From contig JAWPGT010000053.1 in the NCBI GenBank assembly GCA_034638255.1, positions 93,638 to 157,637 of the forward strand: DNA of 64,000 bases. The letters run 5' to 3'. Source of the stretch: Coprinus comatus. Lineage: Eukaryota; Basidiomycota; Agaricomycetes; Agaricales; Agaricaceae. The translations under genes and the position numbers were made by a program. Numbering within the stretch: position 1 is the first letter of the stretch; the number at the start of each line of letters is the position of its first letter. Below, one piece after another: positions 21,862 to 38,669 of this stretch. The notes under the pieces are model-generated. The model saw nothing but the letters and a program-made list of their open reading frames with translations. It searched no databases and was not told the DNA's origin.

Positions 21862-21933
21862 ATGGCAGGCGCATTCAGCGGCCACCTTGTCCAGTCGCAC
21901 GAGCAACAATCGACCATCTGTACTTCAGGAGCA

Positions 21934-24174
21934 ATGTCCTTCAATACCACCATGCACGGCAGCACACCTTCCTTCTTTGCTTCTCAAACACCTGGAATTC
22001 CAATGTCAATGCCATTTACTCCAAATCCATTCGCCAATACCAATGGTTCATTATCGGAAGAAACAGCGCAGAGAATTGCTCAATTACAAGCAAAACTTAC
22101 ACAAAAACTTGGTCCCGAATATGTGTCGCAAAGACCAGGACCTGCTGGAAAGTTGACTTATGCAGAGGGTTGGAAGATTATTAATCTGGCGAATGAAGTG
22201 TTTGGGTTTAATGGTTGGAGTTCGAATGTTGTCAGTCTTACTACCGATTTTATCGAGAAGAACGATTCTTCTGGGAGGTATAATGTTGGTGTAACGGCTA
22301 TTATAAGAGTTACGCTGAGGGATGGAGTATATCACGAGGATATTGGGTACGGTATGTTGGAGAACAGTAAAAGCCAAGGTCAGGCTTTGGATAAGGTATG
22401 GTTGTTGATTCTCTTCTGGGTCAAGCGGAGTGCTGATATTACTGTAGTGTAAAAAAGAGGCGGTCACGGATGGCCTTAAACGTGCGTTGAGGAACTTTGG
22501 AAACCTCATGGGCAATTGTCTATACGATAAAGCATATGCACAAGAAATCGTGAAGATGAAGGTTCCTCCGGTATGATAAACCTTCGTGCCTTCTCTGGGT
22601 ATTTTTTCAACCTTTGTGTTTCATAGGCCAAGTTTGATAAAAGCGAACTTCATCGAAGAAAGGAATTCGCAGAACCTGAAGAGACAAAACCTACAATTCC
22701 TCCCCAACCTGCAAACAATAACAACTCTCGACCACCTGTACCGCCTTTCAATGCTTCTAATACTTCATCTACTTCATCAACTACTGCTCGTCAACCACAA
22801 TCAAATGCAAATGCTTCAACATCACGCGCACCACAAAATTCTGCTACGAATATGCGTTCATCAATCAACTCTAATCCCAATACTTCTATGAACAATTCAG
22901 ACATATTAATATCCAAACCTTCTGGTTCTACTACTTCGGTTCCCAACCAAAATGCTCGTTCAAATCAACCCCAACCCCAACCCCAACCCCAACCTCCACA
23001 AAGTCGTCATGTTTCATTCGCTCAATCATCATCTTCATCCATTTCTATCTCAGCACATACAATTCGTACAGAGACACCCGTTGCTCAGACAAAATGTACT
23101 ACATTGAAAGCAGAACAAGAAGATAGTTTTGATTTTGGTGATGACGACGCATTTTTCGCAGCTTTGGATATGGGAGAAGCAGATCTTGGAAGACCACTTG
23201 AAACGGAAACTGATACAGACCTTGGACAACCTATAGAATTTGATGAAACTTTGGACACAACTCGGAGTGGTGACAGGAGTAGTGTGATCAACGATTCACT
23301 ATCAATGGCAAATATTTCTGTTGAGGAGAAAGATAAATCGAAAGATCAAGCTGCTATTAATAAGGCTGCTAGGTTACAAAGATTACAACAACAGATTAGG
23401 AGTGCGAGTTTGACTATGGATGATGAAGATAGCATTAATGGAGAGGATCAACAATCGATTTTGCCGGATGAATTGACGATGAATAAGGGCCCATTGGGAT
23501 CGAATTCGAATAATTCTCGACTGTTTCAAATGACAACTATTGCTCAACATCAAGTAACATCCGCTTCGGGTGTGGGCGTGCTAAGGAATCAAAACCAAAA
23601 CCAAAATCAGAGACAACGACCCATAAAACTTTCGCCCGTTCAAGATAGAGATCAGAACCGGAATCCGAATACTACTCCTTCGAATTCCAATGATAAACCA
23701 AACGGCGGTATTAGTAATGGGAATGGGAATGGGAAGAGACCACTTACACCTTCTATGGGTGGATTTCATTTTCCTCCTGGGATGGTATGAATATTTTCTT
23801 TTCTTTTCTTTTCTTTTCACATTACATCTGTTACGGTTGACGAAGTTGAAACATACTTACAATTTTTCGGTTAATAGAATCCTTTACAAACGCAAAATCT
23901 TAACGCTAATGGTACTTTGAATCGGTCAAATGGAATCAAAAGAACTGCGGATGCGATGACTTGTTCTGACGGTATTACTGCTCCTGGTTCTGGTCTTGGT
24001 CTTGGTCTTGGTTCTGGTACTGGTACTGGTAACGGTACTGGTAGTGGTAATGGGTATAGAGGTTCGAGACCTGGAATGGGATTACAGCAAGGTGCTCAAC
24101 CTATTATTAGAAGAGAACCGTTTGCGCGGTTGGAAGTTGGTGAAGGTGGGGATGTGAAGAGAATTAGACGATGA
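21934..24174 (+). CDS. RAD52: RAD52 DNA recombination/annealing protein (full-length copy C)
   Basis: Exons 21934-22395, 22448-22570, 22627-23784 and 23878-24174 give about 679 residues. The N-terminal annealing domain is canonical: [108 protein letters not shown]. The long C-terminal half is disordered, rich in Asn, Gln, Pro and Ser. It has an acidic patch ([20 protein letters not shown]) where Rad51 and RPA contacts lie in the family, and a Gly/Thr dipeptide tract near the end. The protein mediates Rad51 loading on RPA-coated ssDNA and strand annealing. An in-frame ATG at 21862 would add 24 residues. The 21934 start is preferred because the family sequence normally begins close to MSF. It is the only complete copy of the array. 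Confidence 0.94.
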
Positions 24175-25169: not shown

Positions 25170-28100
25170 TCATTCCTTGTTGTACGGAATAAACACATCC
25201 CAATGAGTATAATACCGTTTTCCATCGGATATACTCAGATAATCTGGTAGATAGATATAACATGAGTTCCCTGAACCCAGAAATTTCCCAACTCGACAGT
25301 GTGTCCGACTCTTATCTTCCCACATTTGTTTAAGAATTGAGAAAAAATGTACTACCTCCTCTGAGTCAGGGTATCCACCAAGACACCATGATTTATCACA
25401 CCTTATTGAACCATACCAAGTCTGTTGTTCCAAGGTCATATCCTGCAATGACATGTCAGCCTTCCAAACAACAACCAGGATGATTGGTTTTGTACACACG
25501 TTGTATAACATTATGTTATCACCCTCATTACTGCGTCTACGATGGGTACCGTTGTGAAACAGAGCCTCTCTGAAAACATCAATTGCTTCCATTTTAATAT
25601 CCTTGGCATCCATAAATACATGGAAAAGCTCAGGATCTCGGTTGCGAAACTCCTGCACCTTTGTGAGTAAGGCAAAGAAAAATAAGTACATCAGTTTCTG
25701 CTGAACTATAAATCTACCTGAACACTCACAAAATCATAGACCATTTTCATGAAATCCATTTTCTGTCTAATTCCAACGCTCCACACAGGTACAACCGAGA
25801 AATCAAAGTTATGGATAAAATTCCTTAGAGAAAAAAAGAGTGGGTGATCTTTATCAGCAGCACGATTGTCATGCGTGTAGTCAAAACAATGGCACAGCAT
25901 ATCAAGTTTTGCCTTAAAGCACACGTCAGGCTCTTCAAATACAGTTGTTAGTTTGATGTTATCCACTTTGAATTGTCCATCTGGATCTAATGAACGCGTG
26001 AGTAAGAGAAACAATTTAAACTTCATGGTGACTTAAAATGTGATCAGTAACTCACTGTCCATGACGTCATCCAAGATCCGATGCAAACACAATTCATATT
26101 CTTTGCCTGCGCTGTCGCGTCCAATGGAAAATGGGCCAGAGCGAGATTCATCCTCTAGATAGTCAACAAAAGACTTATGTTCAACATCAGGTAAGTCGTT
26201 GGACTCGGGCTCAAACGAGTAGTGTAACACGGAATTCAACTTGTGAAGAGAACTGCGCATGTGATGCATCGGAAGTTGGATGAAGTTGCTCAGCTGGCGA
26301 TGATCTAGTCTAGAGAACGAGTGTTCATCCGATATTATAGACAGCATTCGTTTTGTGGTGGGCAACATATCGTCCGGAATGGTGGACATAACAAAGTTAT
26401 AGAGAGCATCCAGATCTGCAAAGGGGTTCCGCTTTCTTTCCGAGTCCTTTTGGTTCCTCCTCGCGTTTTCAATACCGTCAATGACTCCGTTCAAGAGTGT
26501 CACGGGGTCCCGATAGTCCACATCATCAATGAACTTCATCACTGTGGAAGCAAAAGCAAAAAGACCACCGGCATAACTGGCAATCGTCAGGAACTGAGTC
26601 TCTGTTGGCCATTGATGCGGGTTGGGAATAGAACGAGAATTCCTACAACGAATGTCTGCGAATCCAGATCGTAGGTACCAGTCAACATCAGCGCATGATT
26701 CATCCGAGTCGATCTCCATCTCATCCATGTCGTAAGTTGGTAATATCTGTGGCATCGCAAATACGTCTTCTATGTGTGATTCTGGGCGACTGCTGACAAG
26801 CCAAAGGATTGGAGCAGTTGGATGGTCAGATACATATGTGGCAATGAGTTCAATGATTTCGCATTGCGCTTCCTCCCCCTTGCACTCGTCAAGTCCATCC
26901 AAGATGATGACAATTGGCTGTGTACCGGTGTGCAACTTCATATGAATAAAGGGTTGGGTGATAAAGTAGAAGAACTGGGTTTTCATTGATCGTTCAGGAA
27001 GTTTGGGATCTTCATTGAGCTTTGACAACAAATGTTGTCGGTATGGCGGGTAACGTGCATACAGTTGATAAGCGATGGTTGTGAAGAGTCGGTTAGGGTC
27101 ACTACGGCCAGTTGAGCTAGACCTCCAGAAAAAAAATGCTGCTCCTGGCTTCACAGCTGGAGGAGAGAATATGGATTCTGCAATTGATTGTAGAACAGCA
27201 GATTTACCAACACCTGCCGGTCCTTTCACCCAAAAGAACGGTTTCTGTCCACATCCACAATTGAGAATCCATTCACGTAAATGCTGCTCCTGGCTTCACA
27301 GCTGGAGGAGAGAATATGGATTCTGCAATTGATTGTAGAACAGCAGATTTACCAACACCTGCCGGTCCTTTCACCCAAAAGAACGGTTTCTGTCCACATC
27401 CACAATTGAGAATCCATTCACGTAATCGTCCCCGAAGACGAACTCGGGTGTTGGGGTGGCATTTAGGAGGCGGGTTACGTTCTGAGGAATCCACGTCAGC
27501 ACCGAGCACGGTATATTTGAGCAGCATCTTCAAAGCTTAGGAATGTTGGGTGTCAGAACTTATGTAGTAACCGCAGTTCCGAGATTACTCACTCCTGTTA
27601 TTGACATCTGGCGTGTGTTGGCAATTATTTGATACCATTGTTGGGTTATTTATTACAAAGTCGTGAGATTGAGCAATGAATGTATTTGAAGGTGTGAGAC
27701 TGGAATTAGTCGCGTGAGATATTTGACCAGGTTCAGTGGTAGCAAGTGGGAGGCAGTCTCTTGCGTTTTGTTGGTTTCCTAGTACTGGAACTAATTATTA
27801 AAATCCTGAGCTTAATACGAAAAATCAAATTGACTTACTCGTCGAAGTAATTTCGGGCACCTCGGACTCGGGCTGCACCTCGGAAGGAGCTGTTGCCAGT
27901 TGAGTGTTGTGGTAATCGTACCGCTGACTCGTTGTGGCTTCATTGGAAGCCGCAGGTATTTCTTCCATCTCGTAACTTCGTTGGATGGTTGGTAGCGAAA
28001 ACATTGTGAGCAGATGCGGCTGTGGACGGCTGGTGATAATCCAGAGAAAGGGTGTGCTAGGGTAGCGCTGCACGAAGAACGAGACAAGTGCAATGATTGC

Positions 28101-28779
28101 GCATTGATCCCGTTCATTTTGACATTCATCTAGTCCATCAATGAGTATGATAATGGGAAATGTGGTGTCTATCAGTCCTGTGAGAAATGGTTGGACTATG
28201 ACGCGATTGAAGTGGGTTCGAATTGGCTGTTCATAGAACCTGGGATCTTTGTTCAATTCGGAAGTGAAATACGCGTGATACGAAGGGAAGTAGGTGCCCA
28301 GTTGATCAGCGATCATGATAAAAAGTCGTCGAGAGTCACTGTACTCTTCAGTTTCCCTTGAAAAGAAGAATAACGCTCCTCGGAACCATCCAGAGTGACT
28401 GATTGAGTTCGAGATATCCCGCATGATATCAGATTTCCCAACACAAGCTGGACTTTTCAGCCAAAGAAATGGCCTCCTGGAACGTGTATATGCATTGTTG
28501 ATCCAGTTTAAAGTCCACTGTAGCAGCGGTTGATTATGTTCGGACAAGTTAGAGTTCGTGCCTAGGGTCATGTAGTTGAGAGGGGTAATGCACTAGCATT
28601 AGTGTAGACAACCGATACTTACTTGAAGGGTAACTGGCGTATGAAAGAGAGGAACCATTGCTTGTTTGATGTAAAGCATTGTTTTCATTCCCTAGCTGAG
28701 TTTCACCACTAAACATGTGCGAGCTTTGAGGCATGTCATGTCTATGGGCGAGACTCTGGTCGTAGTATGGTAGAGCCAT
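25170..28779 (-). CDS. Double-NACHT STAND NTPase, one frame-breaking duplication in NACHT 2
   Basis: Six exons on the minus strand keep phase: 28779-28623, 28561-27839, 27790-27593, 27535-26056, 25986-25730, 25658-25170. Exon 2 encodes NACHT 1, with Walker A degenerated to SPACVGKS and Walker B IIILIDGLDEC. Exon 3 is a 66-residue linker. Exon 4 opens with SSERNPPPKCHPNTRV, typical of mushroom NACHT proteins, then NACHT 2 with intact GPAGVGKS and IVIILDGLDEC. A C-terminal domain of about 250 residues follows, without WD40, ankyrin or TPR repeats. A 145-bp tandem duplication (27137-27426) shifts the frame inside NACHT 2; without it every exon is open, about 1,050 residues. NLR-like fungal proteins act in non-self recognition or cell death, but no effector domain is recognised. 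Start MALPYYDQ is tentative; an extra 5' exon may lie at 28830-29022. Confidence 0.75.
27137..27426 (-). repeat. 145-bp tandem duplication over the NACHT 2 P-loop
   Basis: Two copies (27137-27281 and 27282-27426) that look identical. They cover the segment from the helix before the P-loop (REWILNCGCG) through Walker A to VKPGAAF. A length of 145 is not a multiple of 3, so the frame is lost after the first copy. No GT..AG pair with the needed spacing would splice one copy out. Confidence 0.9.
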
Positions 28780-29983: not shown

Positions 29984-32049
29984 ATGCGTTCTTCCACAGC
30001 GAAATGTCGCGTAGAGAATCACGTCATTAAGCACAATCATGTGAATTACAATTACGTATGGACACGTCCCATTAAGGAATGTATTAACCACAATCCAGTT
30101 GCTTTACGCGCTTTACAGTTCACACTACTCACTACCCGGTTCTCCAACCAACATCCAGAGGGGATACGATACACGAGCTCTGTAATAACAACAACGAACA
30201 ACTCAAATTCGAACGTGAATACCAAGAAAGCGCAATTTTCAAGAACCGGAAGCATATTATTGTCACCAAAGAAACGTAGACGTTTGTCTTTGGAAGACAA
30301 CCATACCCATACCTACGATAACTTCAACGTTGACAAGAACGAGAACGTAAAACTGGATATCCCTTATCAACATTCATCGAAGGAATTATGGGAATGGACG
30401 TTGAATTCTGCTTCCATTGCTAAATGTTTTGTCAGATGCTTTGGTCATGTCTGAAGCTCGAGATAGTTGGTTCAATTCTCCTCCCTCCCCATGTTTGAAT
30501 GTTTGAATTTATTTCTTTAGATTTTGATTTCTATTTTCTGGGAAGCGTACCGTGTCGTAGGGTAGAGGTATGTGCACCTGTTGGTATTCAAGTGTTTGAG
30601 AGGAAAATTATCTATACTGGTATGTCCCTTCTTATCTTGTCATTAGTAGTAAGTCTTATAAAATAATATCACTAAACATGATTCTGTAGTGGACGATGGA
30701 ACATCTGTAATTGAATGTGTATATACACCATGTCAAAAACAGCCACGAAAAACTATGACTATGATTAAGACTTTGGCACCTCAGAAAACTCCGAACCCTT
30801 TACCCCTTTTAAGACCCATCACCCGAATTGGAGGAGTTATTAAAGTTGTAGGGAGGGTTGTTAGGAAGTTGGAAATGGGAGCGGTTTTGGTTGATCAACC
30901 ATGTACGTGATTAACGGGACATTGTGCTTTATTTGTTTTACTCATTTGAGGCAGCTGCTTCAAATCTCGGCGAACAGCTGAAATATTGGAAGACTAAACC
31001 TACATGAGACGTGTTATTCAAGACCCGGACCTTTTGTTATTCCTTCTCTTGTACATCATCAAGAATCACATAGTGAAAATGAAAGGAGATCCAGAAAAGG
31101 TGGTGCTTGTCCAAGTGAACAGGCGTATGAACTGTCTGCGCTTATTCCACCAAGTCCTATCAAACCCAATCCTATCTTCCAGGTAAATCCTCTACCACAC
31201 CTTTAATTTAAAATACTGATTATTTCTTTCCTTCTTTGTTAACTACAGTCACCTCATAAACTACGACACCCTTCGCGACTACGTTCCCATAATCTAACGA
31301 CTACTGCATTTCGATTATATGTCAAACACTTCATTGATAATGCTTTTTTGGATACCGAGTAGGACATGAGCTTTCTCCCAAGTAATCAATTGGGTCGAAA
31401 TATGTCTCCGACGCCTTCGAAAGCATCAACATCAAAATTAAAACCGACATCAATGTCAAGTCAATACGGATACGGATTCGAACGCGATAACAATATGACT
31501 CCTCGACCGAAAGATAAACATTATATTCCTAAACCTACCACGAAATCTACGAAGACGAAGAATGGTCAAAAGACGTATCAAGGATTCACATTGTCGTATC
31601 TCAGTATACTTGGATTATCTCTTATGGCGAAACGAGTGGTTAAACAAAAAGCTCGAGAAATGATTAAACAACAAAAAGAGCAAGGAACTGTCGATCCGAA
31701 TTCAAGTTCGAGATCTACGAAGGCCTTGTCCTCTTTCTCGTTGGCATCTTCATCGAGATCGAAATCCCAATTATCGTCTTCCTTATTCAAAATGAGCAAA
31801 GCATCACTTGCCTCGAAGAAAAAACGATTATTCCAATATGCAATTTGTGAAATACTGAGAGATGGAAGTATTAGTTTGTGGGAAGGACGTAAAAGAAAGT
31901 GTCTTTTATGAGAGATTTTGGCATATATAAAAAGAGATGATAGGTGGACGTATATTGGAGAATGGAATGTTGGGGATGCTTTGGAGTGGATGGAAAGAGA
32001 GAAGGTGACGTGGAAAGCTGTTGGTGACAGGTGGCTTTTGACGGAGTAA
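29984..32049 (+). pseudogene. STN1-like telomere-capping OB-fold gene with several lesions
   Basis: Fragments in order match the CST-complex subunit Stn1: LWEWTLNSASIAKCFVR (about 30390), FLGSVPCRRVEV with IQVFERKIIYT|VDDGTSVIECV (about 30535-30720, split by a good intron 30620-30689), GGVIKVVGRVV (about 30830), LHETCYSRPGPFVIP (about 31000), TPRPKDKHYIP and YQGFTLSYL (about 31500-31600), KKRLFQYAICEILRDGSISLWEG (about 31830), and the C-terminal winged-helix block RWTYIGEWNVGDALEWMERE ending at 32049. The frame breaks near 30435 and near 30995. A TAG at about 31360 could lie inside an intron (31358-31461). An in-frame TGA at 31909-31911 precedes the last 45 residues. Stn1 binds telomeric ssDNA with Ten1. 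I cannot tell real decay from assembly errors. Confidence 0.66.
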
Positions 32050-35803: not shown

Positions 35804-35979
35804 ACTCTGGTCTAACCGGTTGATATTTCTTTGTTAATGGGAATTTTCCCTCGGTGTACTTTTTTTCCATTTATGTACCACCATGCACACATATTCGTAC
35901 TAATATTAAGAAAATTATACTTGTATAAATGAGGAAGTTTGATTAGTGAATTCAATGCTTTCGCTCTGTGCTTTTCTTC

Positions 35980-36165
35980 TCCTTGGACTTGTCAAGCTCC
36001 CATCCAAGATGATGACAGTGTGACAGTGCGACTTCATATGAACAATGGTTGGGTGATAAAGTAGAAGATTTCATTGATCGTTTAGGAAGCTTTCATGAGC
36101 TTCGACAACAGATATTGTCGGTGTGGCAGGTAACGCACATGTAGCTGGTAAGCGATGGTGATGAA
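35980..36165 (-). pseudogene. NACHT 2 fragment
   Basis: A decayed copy of the stretch at about 26895-27075 of the double-NACHT gene (the Walker B region back to the following helices). It has several small deletions and no open frame. It sits downstream, in gene order, of the NACHT 1 fragment, as in the intact gene. Confidence 0.75.
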
Positions 36166-36399
36166 TACATTGTTTGGACCACATAAGTTCTATATACTCA
36201 CCCGCTCGGGTGCATTAAAAAACCCAGTTGGAAAAAGCTACCGGCGGGCACAAATGATTGTAAACTACAAGTGACTACTAGTATACGATGCCCTCCTACT
36301 TATAAATCTGGAAGATGCCATCAGTCACCGATAAGATACAATGAACTGTGCCTCGGAAGGAGCTATTACTGGCTGACTGTTTGATATTAAATATCCAGA

Positions 36400-37890
36400 A
36401 TTTCCTACTGATGTTGAACCATAGCATTGGAGGAAAAATAATTGACAGTGGTTGTGAGTATGTATAAGCCAATGTAAGATGGACCAGACTCACTATATTG
36501 TGTGCTCACACTCGCGACTGAACCCAAGTGACCAAAGTAATAATCGTACCGCCGAGTCGTCGTGGCTTCATCGGAACCCGTGGGTATTTCTTCTGTCTTG
36601 TAACTTGGTTGGATGATTGGTAGCGAAAACGTTCTAAGCAGATGCGGCTGCGGATGGCTGTTGATAATCCAGAGGATGGGTGAGATAGGGTAGCACACTG
36701 CACCAAAAACGAAATAAGTCCAATGATCCGGCACTGATCCTGTTCATTTCGACATTCATCTAGTCTATCAATGAGTATGATAATGGGAAATGTGGTGTCT
36801 ATCCGTCCTGTAACAAATGGTTGGACTACGACGCGATTGAATCGAGTTTGAATTGGTTGTTGAGAGAACCTGGGATTTTTGTTCAATTCGGAAGTGAAAT
36901 ACGTGTGATACGAAGGGAAATAGGTGCCCAGTTGGTCAGCGATTGTGAGTGGAGGATCTGACGCACAGCGTCAGATGCGATGTCTTGAAAGGAGATTCAC
37001 GTGATCTAATTGCAACAGCGCGTCACTGTTCACGCGTACTTACCTGTCTGATCCCTCCATACCACTCCATATGAATGCAACATCTCGTTGCTTCATCATT
37101 TTATTTACCCTCCCACCTCCCTCGGATTGACACTAGGTGCGACTCCTGAACGACCAGTGAGCCGCTGTCGTTCTCCCGTCGCATCGCCAGGCTCGACCAC
37201 GTTGTGCTCTTCCCTTAGTATTACCACAATACCAGTTGCACGACGTGGTCACCTCTCCCATACACTCAAAGTGTCAGTCTACAGGAAGCCAATATATTAT
37301 TTATTTACTAGTTGCCCTACCTGAACTCGACGAGCAAGACAAAAAGTTGTCGAGAGTCACTGTGCTCTTCAGTTTCCCTTGAAAAGAAGAATGACGCTCC
37401 TCGAAACCTTCCAGAGTGACTGATTGAGTTCGAAATAGCCCGGATAGTATCAGATTTCCCCACACCGGCTGGGCCTTTCAGCCAAAGGAATGGCCTCCTC
37501 TCAAGTGTGAAGGCATGGGTAATCCAGTTTAAAGTCCACTGTAGCAGCGGTTGATTATGTTCGGACAAGTTAGAGTTGGTGCTTGTGGTACGTAGTTGAG
37601 AGGGGGAAATATACTACCATTGGTGTAGACAAACGATACTTACTTGAAGGGTAGCTGGCGTATAAATTTTCATTCCCTAGCAGAGGTTCACAGCTAAACA
37701 TGTGCGAACTTTAGGCGTGTCATGGCCATGAGCGAGACTCTGGTCGTAGTATGGTAGAGGCATCTAAGAATCCCGTTAACAGAGCAGTGGTCAGAGCTGA
37801 GAAGTAGAAGACTGACCTGTGAAGGGATCATGATGCTGTGCGGGATCTATAAATATTTTACGTGGATACACAGGAAAATTTCCCCGTCTC
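36400..37890 (-). pseudogene. NACHT 1 copy split by a solo repeat and frameshifted
   Basis: Read on the minus strand. Leader-like exons (about 37890-37630) are followed by WTLNWITHAFTLERRPFLW and LKGPAGVGKSD up to SRQLFV. The solo element 36948-37338 comes next, and the domain continues with TIADQLGTYFPSYH, then IIILIDRLDEC. Removing the insert rebuilds the codons exactly. A frameshift follows after FLVQC, and the rest stays open only in another frame (SPILWIINSHPQPHLL ...). Walker A is canonical here (GPAGVGKS), unlike the degenerate SPACVGKS of the apparently functional gene at 28.5 kb. The central G of Walker B has become R (LIDRLDEC). Confidence 0.86.
36948..37338 (+). repeat. Solo A-B repeat of a Ngaro-type retrotransposon, copy 3
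   Basis: A 391-bp unit from AGTGGAGG with hairpin ATCTGACGCACAGCGTCAGAT to CGACGAGCAAG. It is near-identical to copy 1 (1122-1513) in the opposite orientation. Its borders are exact because it interrupts a NACHT sequence. The flanks GCGATTGTG | ACAAAAAGTT join to match the intact copy (GCGATCATGATAAAAAGTC), with no target-site duplication. Confidence 0.88.
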
Positions 37891-38084
37891 CAATCTTGCT
37901 CAGCCAGGATATCCCTAGTAAGTTGTTTAACAATCGGGAAATAACACACAGTATAACTCATGTGCCGGCTTTATTGCCTTAGATGCATTCGGAAGTATTT
38001 TAATACTGAGCAGTAATATTTCTATCTTACATCTGACTTAGAGAGGGAATGTGGAGGACGTGATGCTGTTCAACAGTGTTCATC

Positions 38085-38285
38085 AGTAAAGCATCTGCGA
38101 ATGTGGATGCGCCAGATCCATACCAACTCCTTCACATACCTTGACCTCTATCGTCATCCCGCTCTTACCCTTGTTCTTCAAAATCTTCAAATTGCCCTCC
38201 CTCCAACCCCTAGTACCTACATTCACCCAGATGCACAATGGGTGAGCACTCACGTTCTCCCATCGTCGCATTGCCCGGTACTCGA
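38085..38285 (+). repeat. Degenerate, truncated A-B-like repeat
   Basis: It starts AGTAAAGCATCTGCG...GATGCGCC, like the hairpin end of the solo repeats. It later has CGTTCTCCCATCGTCGCATTGCC, like CGTTCTCCCGTCGCATCGCC of copy 3. It is about half length and abuts a NACHT fragment. The resemblance is partial, so this is tentative. Confidence 0.4.
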
Positions 38286-38669
38286 CTCTAATGAACGCGT
38301 GAGTAAGAGAAACAATTTAAACTTCATGGTGACTTGAGATTTGATCAGTAACTCACTGTCCATGACTTCATGCAGGATCCGATGAAAACATGAGTCATAT
38401 TCTTTCCTTGCACTGTCGCGTGCAATAAAAAATGGGCCAGAGCGAGATTCATCCTCTAGATAGTTCACAAAAGAGTCATGTTCAACTTCAGATAAGTCGT
38501 TGGACTCAGACTTATACGAGTAGCATAGCACGGAATTCAACCTATGAATAGAACTGCGTTTTTTCAACACGGCTATGGTAAAGTTAGCATACCCATTAAC
38601 TTTCCAATTCTCACACCGTAAAATATATGAATATTCCTCAAATAAAATTCTATGACTTGAAACAAACAA
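38286..38669 (-). pseudogene. NACHT 2 C-terminal fragment
   Basis: Minus-strand sequence encoding RLNSVLCYSYKSESNDLSEV and SFVNYLEDESRSGPFF. It parallels the end of exon 4 and intron 4 of the double-NACHT gene (25985-26250), including the donor site. Homology stops at 38286 on the intron side and near 38570 on the other, so it is an isolated fragment. Confidence 0.8.

Follow-up and report, generated by a model that had tools for sequence, protein, structure and literature searches.

A 64,000-nt stretch of the Coprinus comatus genome (contig C53, JAWPGT010000053.1, positions 93638-157637; hereafter the window) raises the question of whether two NACHT domains encoded side by side on its minus strand, within 28779-25170, belong to two neighbouring genes or to one gene that splices in frame through both, as an earlier note on this DNA had proposed. 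Both domains matched NPHP3_N (Pfam PF24883), with E-values of 4.5e-18 for the upstream domain (NACHT1) and 8.4e-26 for the downstream domain (NACHT2). Comparison of the locus with its copies in the genome (35.7 Mb in 134 contigs) suggested that the window probably holds a member of a lineage-specific, NLR-like STAND family of 16 loci, in which each locus is one gene with an additional, integrated and often degenerate NACHT domain. Judged by conservation among the copies, one gene is likelier than two, because the reading frames join in 12 modelled copies, the linker exon between the two domains is constrained upstream of a conserved Met, and complete frames are present in six loci. In mushroom genomes, NACHT genes number in the dozens and are for the most part of unknown function; the genome searched here gave 79 NPHP3_N matches. 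Since complete, shortened and broken forms occur in this one genome, with the number of NACHT domains and their catalytic state varying among paralogues, the role of the second NACHT domain becomes directly testable.

A probable family of tandem-NACHT genes in Coprinus comatus

When the linker (65 aa) was used as a query against its own genome, 21 matches were obtained, 16 of them nearly full-length (E-values of 1.6e-39 to 2.1e-24, window included) and five weaker, partial and located beside other NACHT genes. The 16 loci share 69-100% amino acid identity in the linker, and NACHT2 lies downstream of it in every one of them. Exon 1 and NACHT1 were found upstream of the linker in 14 loci, NACHT1 being shortened in four; in the remaining two (L014 and L022) the contig ends within NACHT1, and the order exon 1-NACHT1-linker-NACHT2 holds as far as the contigs reach. 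Spliced models gave complete two-NACHT frames from ATG to stop (1046-1059 aa) in six loci (L012, L013, L017, L018, L019 and L020), and in three more (L011, L016 and L024; 856-863 aa) NACHT1 is reduced in frame to its P-loop end. The remaining seven loci are broken or cut, namely the window copy (L009), its allele (L010), L014, L015, L021 (which is also shortened), L022 and L023; L009/L010 and L022/L023 are near-identical pairs. The linker thus recurs in 15 other loci of the genome, and the earlier suggestion that the double form is an established local family was supported.

The gene model, with its predicted splicing, was built by comparing these genomic copies. In the window, all features lie on the minus strand. 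Exon 1 (28779-28623) comprises 52 codons plus 1 nt from an ATG at 28779 and encodes a polar N-terminus; this ATG is kept in 12 of the 14 copies with exon 1 on the contig, being lost in L015 and not found in L023. Intron 1 (28622-28562; 61 nt, GTAAGT..CCCTAG) is followed by exon 2 (28561-27839), which encodes NACHT1, a truncated NACHT/NPHP3_N domain without the post-NTPase region of NACHT2, and a low-complexity tail. Intron 2 (27838-27791; 48 nt) leads to the linker exon, exon 3 (27790-27593; 198 nt, 66 codons), and intron 3 (27592-27536; 57 nt, GTGAGT..CCTAAG) to exon 4 (27535-26056), which encodes the NACHT2 NTPase and the region following it, and whose frame is broken in the window by a 145-nt duplication.

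A single contig (C24:137000-365136) carries ten of the 16 loci, and copies sit at the ends of C24, C52 and C106; this distribution suggests that the array probably breaks the assembly. In L015, about 2.2 kb of other sequence, perhaps a mobile element, separates exon 2 from exon 3. Remnants of decayed copies occur in the window itself (35947-38563, minus strand), comprising an exon 4 3' end (38563-38357), an exon 1 (37763-37667), NACHT1 in two pieces (37582-37342 and 36948-36496), an exon 2 tail (36404-36347) and a NACHT2 fragment (36175-35947). The single decayed copy described previously at 36-38.6 kb does contain fragments of both NACHT domains; however, the exon 4 3' end lies 5' of exon 1, which implied two or more decayed copies, or else a single rearranged one, at 35.9-38.6 kb.

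NACHT1 is a bare and often degenerate NTPase core

A family profile of the post-NTPase region matched only after NACHT2 in all nine complete models, which left NACHT1 as a bare NTPase core. The two domains also differ in their catalytic motifs. In the window, the Walker A motif of NACHT1 (28454-28431) reads SPACVGKS, the first Gly being replaced. Among the six complete copies, NACHT1 Walker A is canonical in L017, L019 and L020, and the catalytic motifs are lost in the other three (L012, L013 and L018), which carry Pro for Ser in Walker A and have also lost the Walker B aspartate. NACHT2, in contrast, keeps Walker A as GPAGVGKS in 16 of 16 loci and has the Walker A and B motifs of a STAND-type NTPase; in L013, L019 and L020 the search pattern missed Walker B, and the aspartate is present. 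The tandem arrangement within one gene is supported by the copies, but not as two equal NOD modules, NACHT1 being truncated and often catalytically degenerate.

The predicted model of exons 4 and 5 of L020 (mean predicted local distance difference test score, pLDDT, 79.5, with low values in stretches beyond residue 449) matched Apaf-1, CED-4 and plant NLRs, Apaf-1 being aligned over residues 11-562 and the plant NLR NRC2 over residues 23-430, and Cdc6/ORC proteins scored equally for the NTPase part. According to this model, the NACHT2 module, and only this module, has the STAND fold, with an NTPase followed by helical and winged-helix domains; the name "winged-helix region" for the post-NTPase region comes from the fold match alone. 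A sequence search of solved structures with the NACHT2 alignment returned one weak match (a Rab5 chain, 0.0073). As to an N-terminal effector domain, an 826-aa scan of L019 gave only NTPase families at E ≤ 0.01.

The ratio of nonsynonymous to synonymous substitution rates (dN/dS) was 0.54 for exon 1 (10 rows), 0.39 for NACHT1 (7 rows), 0.83 for the NACHT1 tail (6 rows), 0.24 for NACHT2 (9 rows) and 0.47 for the region after NACHT2 (9 rows). These values bear on whether NACHT1 is a dying, functionless leftover of an upstream NACHT gene that is carried passively. The reduction of NACHT1 to its P-loop end in four of the 16 loci, the loss of Walker A/B residues in several copies and a dN/dS above that of NACHT2 all fit such a leftover; however, the upper bootstrap limit of the NACHT1 value is 0.50, and a full open NACHT1 is kept in six copies. 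We therefore regard a passive leftover as rather unlikely.

In the assembly, the window copy is interrupted by a 145-nt duplication

In exon 4 of the window copy, an exact 145-nt tandem duplication (27134-27423) spans Walker A of NACHT2. The upstream unit (27423-27279, with GPAGVGKS at 27368-27345) and the downstream unit (27278-27134, with Walker A at 27223-27200) are 100% identical. Because 145 nt is one more than a multiple of three, the frame is shifted and the spliced window frame stops at residue 446; in-frame splicing through both NACHT domains, which had been proposed for the window from its own sequence, is thus predicted for the six complete copies and fails in the window.

The duplication is absent from L010 and from 14 other loci, each of which has a single unit. 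L010 lies on contig C106, which matches the window in unbroken order for about 14 kb (97.8-99.4% identity) and, by this collinearity, most likely represents the other haplotype of the window locus, with L009 and L010 as alleles. As assembled, the window gene is thus disrupted by a repeat that is missing from its allele, and we infer that the window copy is a damaged allele. The allele carries damage of its own, 47 nt being deleted at its exon 4 donor, near the end of C106, and this contig ends inside the gene. Reading such loci from a single copy can overlook a disabling duplication.

An assembly error in contig C53, with a window copy that is really intact, was considered as another explanation of the repeat. 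The repeat is exact and is missing from C106, a contig that itself ends in the gene, and other family copies (L014 and L022) sit at contig ends, as such an error would lead one to expect. The 47-nt deletion in the allele, although close to the end of C106, instead suggests decay of both haplotypes at this locus, and an assembly error appears unlikely. C106 also carries about 280 extra bases at window position 30095-30097, a polymorphic insertion upstream of the gene.

The linker exon probably joins the two NACHT domains

The linker exon had been described with acceptor AATTAG, donor GTGAGT and phase 1 at both ends, and all of these features were confirmed in the window copy. In the 12 modelled copies, which leave out the decayed L015 and L023 and the cut L014 and L022, the length of exon 1 is one more than a multiple of three and those of exons 2 and 3 are multiples of three, and exon 1, exon 2 and the linker join in one frame. 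This holds over seven lengths of exon 2, from 183 to 789 nt, including three large in-frame shortenings. A second AG, 6 nt downstream of the linker acceptor (27785), is likewise in frame and would extend intron 2 to 54 nt. The first AG is lost in three of the 16 copies (L012, L018 and L021) and the second in two (L019 and L020, which are nearly identical there); both are never lost together. Codons 1-48 of the linker, upstream of the conserved Met, depend for their translation on a preceding exon, and their dN/dS was 0.51 (codon bootstrap 0.28-0.96; 10 rows).

One observation weighs against a single gene. Translation continued into intron 2 would reach a stop after four codons in 11 of the 12 copies, L013 being the one without it, so that retention of intron 2 would yield a NACHT1-only product. 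The frame argument also carries a caveat: four of the 12 copies (L013, L017, L019 and L020) require a further intron within the NACHT1 tail, which was inferred partly because it restores the frame, and the argument is circular to that extent. Decay had been the candidate cause of the exon 2 frame break in these four copies and was replaced by this presumed intron (GTGAGTC..TAG, 56-82 nt; 87 nt in L012 and L018). All six models that include it have a GTGAGT donor, and its lengths of 56, 82 or 87 nt are not limited to multiples of three.

The corresponding two-gene alternative would consist of a first gene with NACHT1 alone, terminating a few codons inside intron 2 (..STSKSI*), and a second gene with one NACHT domain, whose start would be a Met in exon 3 or exon 4. 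Besides the stop in intron 2, it could draw on the Met near codon 50 of exon 3, present in all nine aligned rows, and on other NACHT genes of the genome, which begin with an exon resembling the 3' half of exon 3. However, the exon 3 codons before this Met keep their frame, their length in multiples of three and their constraint, the complete copy L013 lacks the stop in intron 2, and phase is kept across the joint in all 12 modelled copies, large exon 2 deletions notwithstanding, subject to the circularity above. Moreover, an intron of 46-54 nt is too short to house another first exon. Two neighbouring genes are thus improbable, and a single gene remains our preferred reading of the joint. Very improbable indeed is a last possibility that also turns on splicing, namely that the duplicated unit, with AG/GT inside Walker A, is removed as a newly arisen intron, which would leave the window copy functional: the unit does contain GCAGGT, and intron birth through tandem duplication of AGGT-containing exon segments is a published model (PMC4974935), but the donor that would be offered, GTGTTG, is not among the family's 81 modelled donors, of which 79 carry G in fifth position (these represent about seven homologous introns in 14 copies, some of them found by patterns that presuppose such donors).

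The C-terminal region has the highest dN/dS and is weakly shared

By comparison of the copies, the C-terminal region of the window gene starts in exon 5 (25986-25730), after intron 4 (26055-25987; 69 nt), and continues after intron 5 (25729-25659; 71 nt) through exon 6 (25658-25500), the last intron (25499-25443; GTGTGT..TTGCAG) and exon 7 with the stop codon TGA (25442-25170). The last intron is 57 nt long in the window and, in the 12 other aligned copies, 62 nt in 11 and 64 nt in L024, where splicing is needed to hold the frame; the C-terminal open reading frame (ORF) 25170-25733 is open in part because the window's 57 nt happen to be a multiple of three.

This region showed the highest dN/dS of all regions (0.93, bootstrap 0.71-1.22; 9 rows), with 30-codon windows reaching 1.79. 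No Pfam family was found at E ≤ 1 in the two C-terminal ORFs of the window or in the spliced C-terminus of L012, and WD40, ankyrin and TPR repeats were not found in them; since no C-terminal repeats were recognised, the family is NLR-like only and not a classical tripartite NLR. The predicted fold of the window C-terminal ORF with nine paralogue rows reached a pLDDT of 33.6. Among candidate proteins of similar total length to the query, no relative of the C-terminus was found outside this genome at E ≤ 10. Within the genome, C-terminal profiles weakly matched three of nine other scanned NACHT loci (L002, L026 and L028), as well as L032-L034, which had been chosen because they matched; the best E-value per locus ranged from 5.8e-5 to 1.1e-7, calculated for a limited number of ORFs chosen by hand. 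The C-terminus can thus be called unfamiliar in having no Pfam match in place of WD40, ankyrin or TPR repeats, and the idea that it is private to the tandem genes was dropped in view of these weak matches. The 3' half of the linker likewise matched the exon before the NACHT domain in six of these nine other NACHT loci. These two shared parts suggest that the tandem gene resembles a local single-NACHT gene to which exon 1 and NACHT1 have been added in front.

Comparison with related and better-known systems

For the search of relatives, 7995 candidate proteins sharing most words with the query were scored, and 120 of 286 matches were listed; the scan for a second NACHT domain covered those 120. 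The best relatives, with 28-42% identity among the 120 listed, belonged to Leucocoprinus, Macrolepiota, Leucoagaricus and Agaricus; the two of these genera whose classification was looked up are Agaricaceae. In the NACHT1 region identity to protein relatives reached 43%. Most of the listed relatives are single-NACHT NLR-like proteins (PF24883 NPHP3_N or PF05729 NACHT) of the same four genera. They resemble the family in NACHT2 and the region after it, share a GA.FDSS.R.PPP.CHP.TR-type motif before NACHT2, and have a linker-like segment in 22 of the 120 listed matches, but they mostly possess one NACHT domain, whereas the Coprinus comatus family has the truncated NACHT1 added in front. Exon 1 and the C-terminus had no match in the 120 listed proteins.

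Two NACHT domains were found in 10 of the 120 (P0001-P0005, P0007, P0051, P0072, P0079 and P0086), predicted proteins from Leucocoprinus, Macrolepiota, Agaricus, Leucoagaricus and one unnamed record; two NPHP3_N Pfam stretches were present in each of the six that were scanned for them. In all 10, a post-NTPase region lies between the two domains, giving two whole modules, in contrast to Coprinus comatus NACHT1, and a truncated NACHT1 of this kind was seen in none of them. They are possibly fused models of neighbouring genes. In our own reading, P0064 and P0091 hold one interrupted NACHT domain. The expectation that fungal NLR-like proteins carry one NOD module thus describes most of the listed relatives, with these 10 departing from it, and of the combination of a double NACHT with this C-terminus only the first part was found among the 120, the C-terminus matching none of them.

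Apaf-1, CED-4 and the plant NLR NRC2 have one NOD module each. They resemble the NACHT2 module in predicted fold, and the Coprinus comatus family differs from them in having no recognised repeat sensor. Among the open-licence PMC papers listed, no fungal protein with two NACHT domains was found by title or by the start of the abstract, and the phrases "two NACHT", "two NOD" and "multiple NACHT" are absent from the available portions of three fungal NLR studies (PMC4986451, PMC9815663 and PMC12258605). According to PMC9815663, many Agaricomycete NLRs have amyloid-like motifs at the N-terminus and a few have internal ones; the motifs NLR05/08/22/29/44 of that study lie in a short N-terminal segment before NACHT, whereas a comparable segment in the Coprinus comatus family would lie between two NACHT domains. 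Plant tandem kinase proteins, described in PMC6997164 as having putative kinase-pseudokinase domains, are alike in combining one active and one degenerate enzyme domain in an immune protein; domain and kingdom differ, and the likeness is an analogy only.

Putative mode of action and origin

Each family gene would join exon 1, the truncated NACHT1, the linker exon, the full NACHT2 and the C-terminus of high dN/dS in one reading frame, as the copies indicate. By analogy with Apaf-1 and NLR proteins, NACHT2 may act as a nucleotide-dependent oligomerisation switch, with the C-terminus as the putative ligand-sensing part. NACHT1, presumably no longer a full switch, could serve as an integrated NTPase core, docking onto NACHT2 or regulating it either in cis or within the oligomer, and the linker 3' half, equivalent to the N-terminal segment of other local NACHT genes, might be a signalling segment that has come to lie between the two domains. 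We tentatively propose that these features might amount to a novel NLR-like architecture, with an active NACHT switch, a repeatedly pseudo-enzymatic NACHT core in front, a signalling segment between them, a diversifying C-terminus and about 14 distinct loci. If so, the family would represent a NACHT-pseudoNACHT receptor whose logic is comparable to that of kinase-pseudokinase immune proteins.

In a tree of 122 NACHT domains, the eight NACHT1 rows formed one clade and the nine of NACHT2 a second (100/100 for either); a wider clade (100/97) unites the two with five further NACHT genes from the same genome. Because the NACHT1 and NACHT2 domains form separate clades, the simplest account is a single origin of the tandem arrangement that preceded the multiplication of the copies. 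An origin of NACHT1 as a recent internal copy of NACHT2 was dropped in view of the same two clades and the NACHT1 stem of 0.76. L019 and L020 are 96-100% identical from exon 1 to shortly past the NACHT2 NTPase and 64-89% identical beyond, suggesting that gene conversion or ectopic exchange homogenises the front of the gene and leaves the C-terminus different.

Elsewhere in the window, 21862-23790 on the plus strand holds ORFs which, from the look of their sequence, may encode a RAD52-type recombination protein. About 390 bases at 1121-1514 match C106 (95%) outside the collinear stretch and represent a dispersed repeat.
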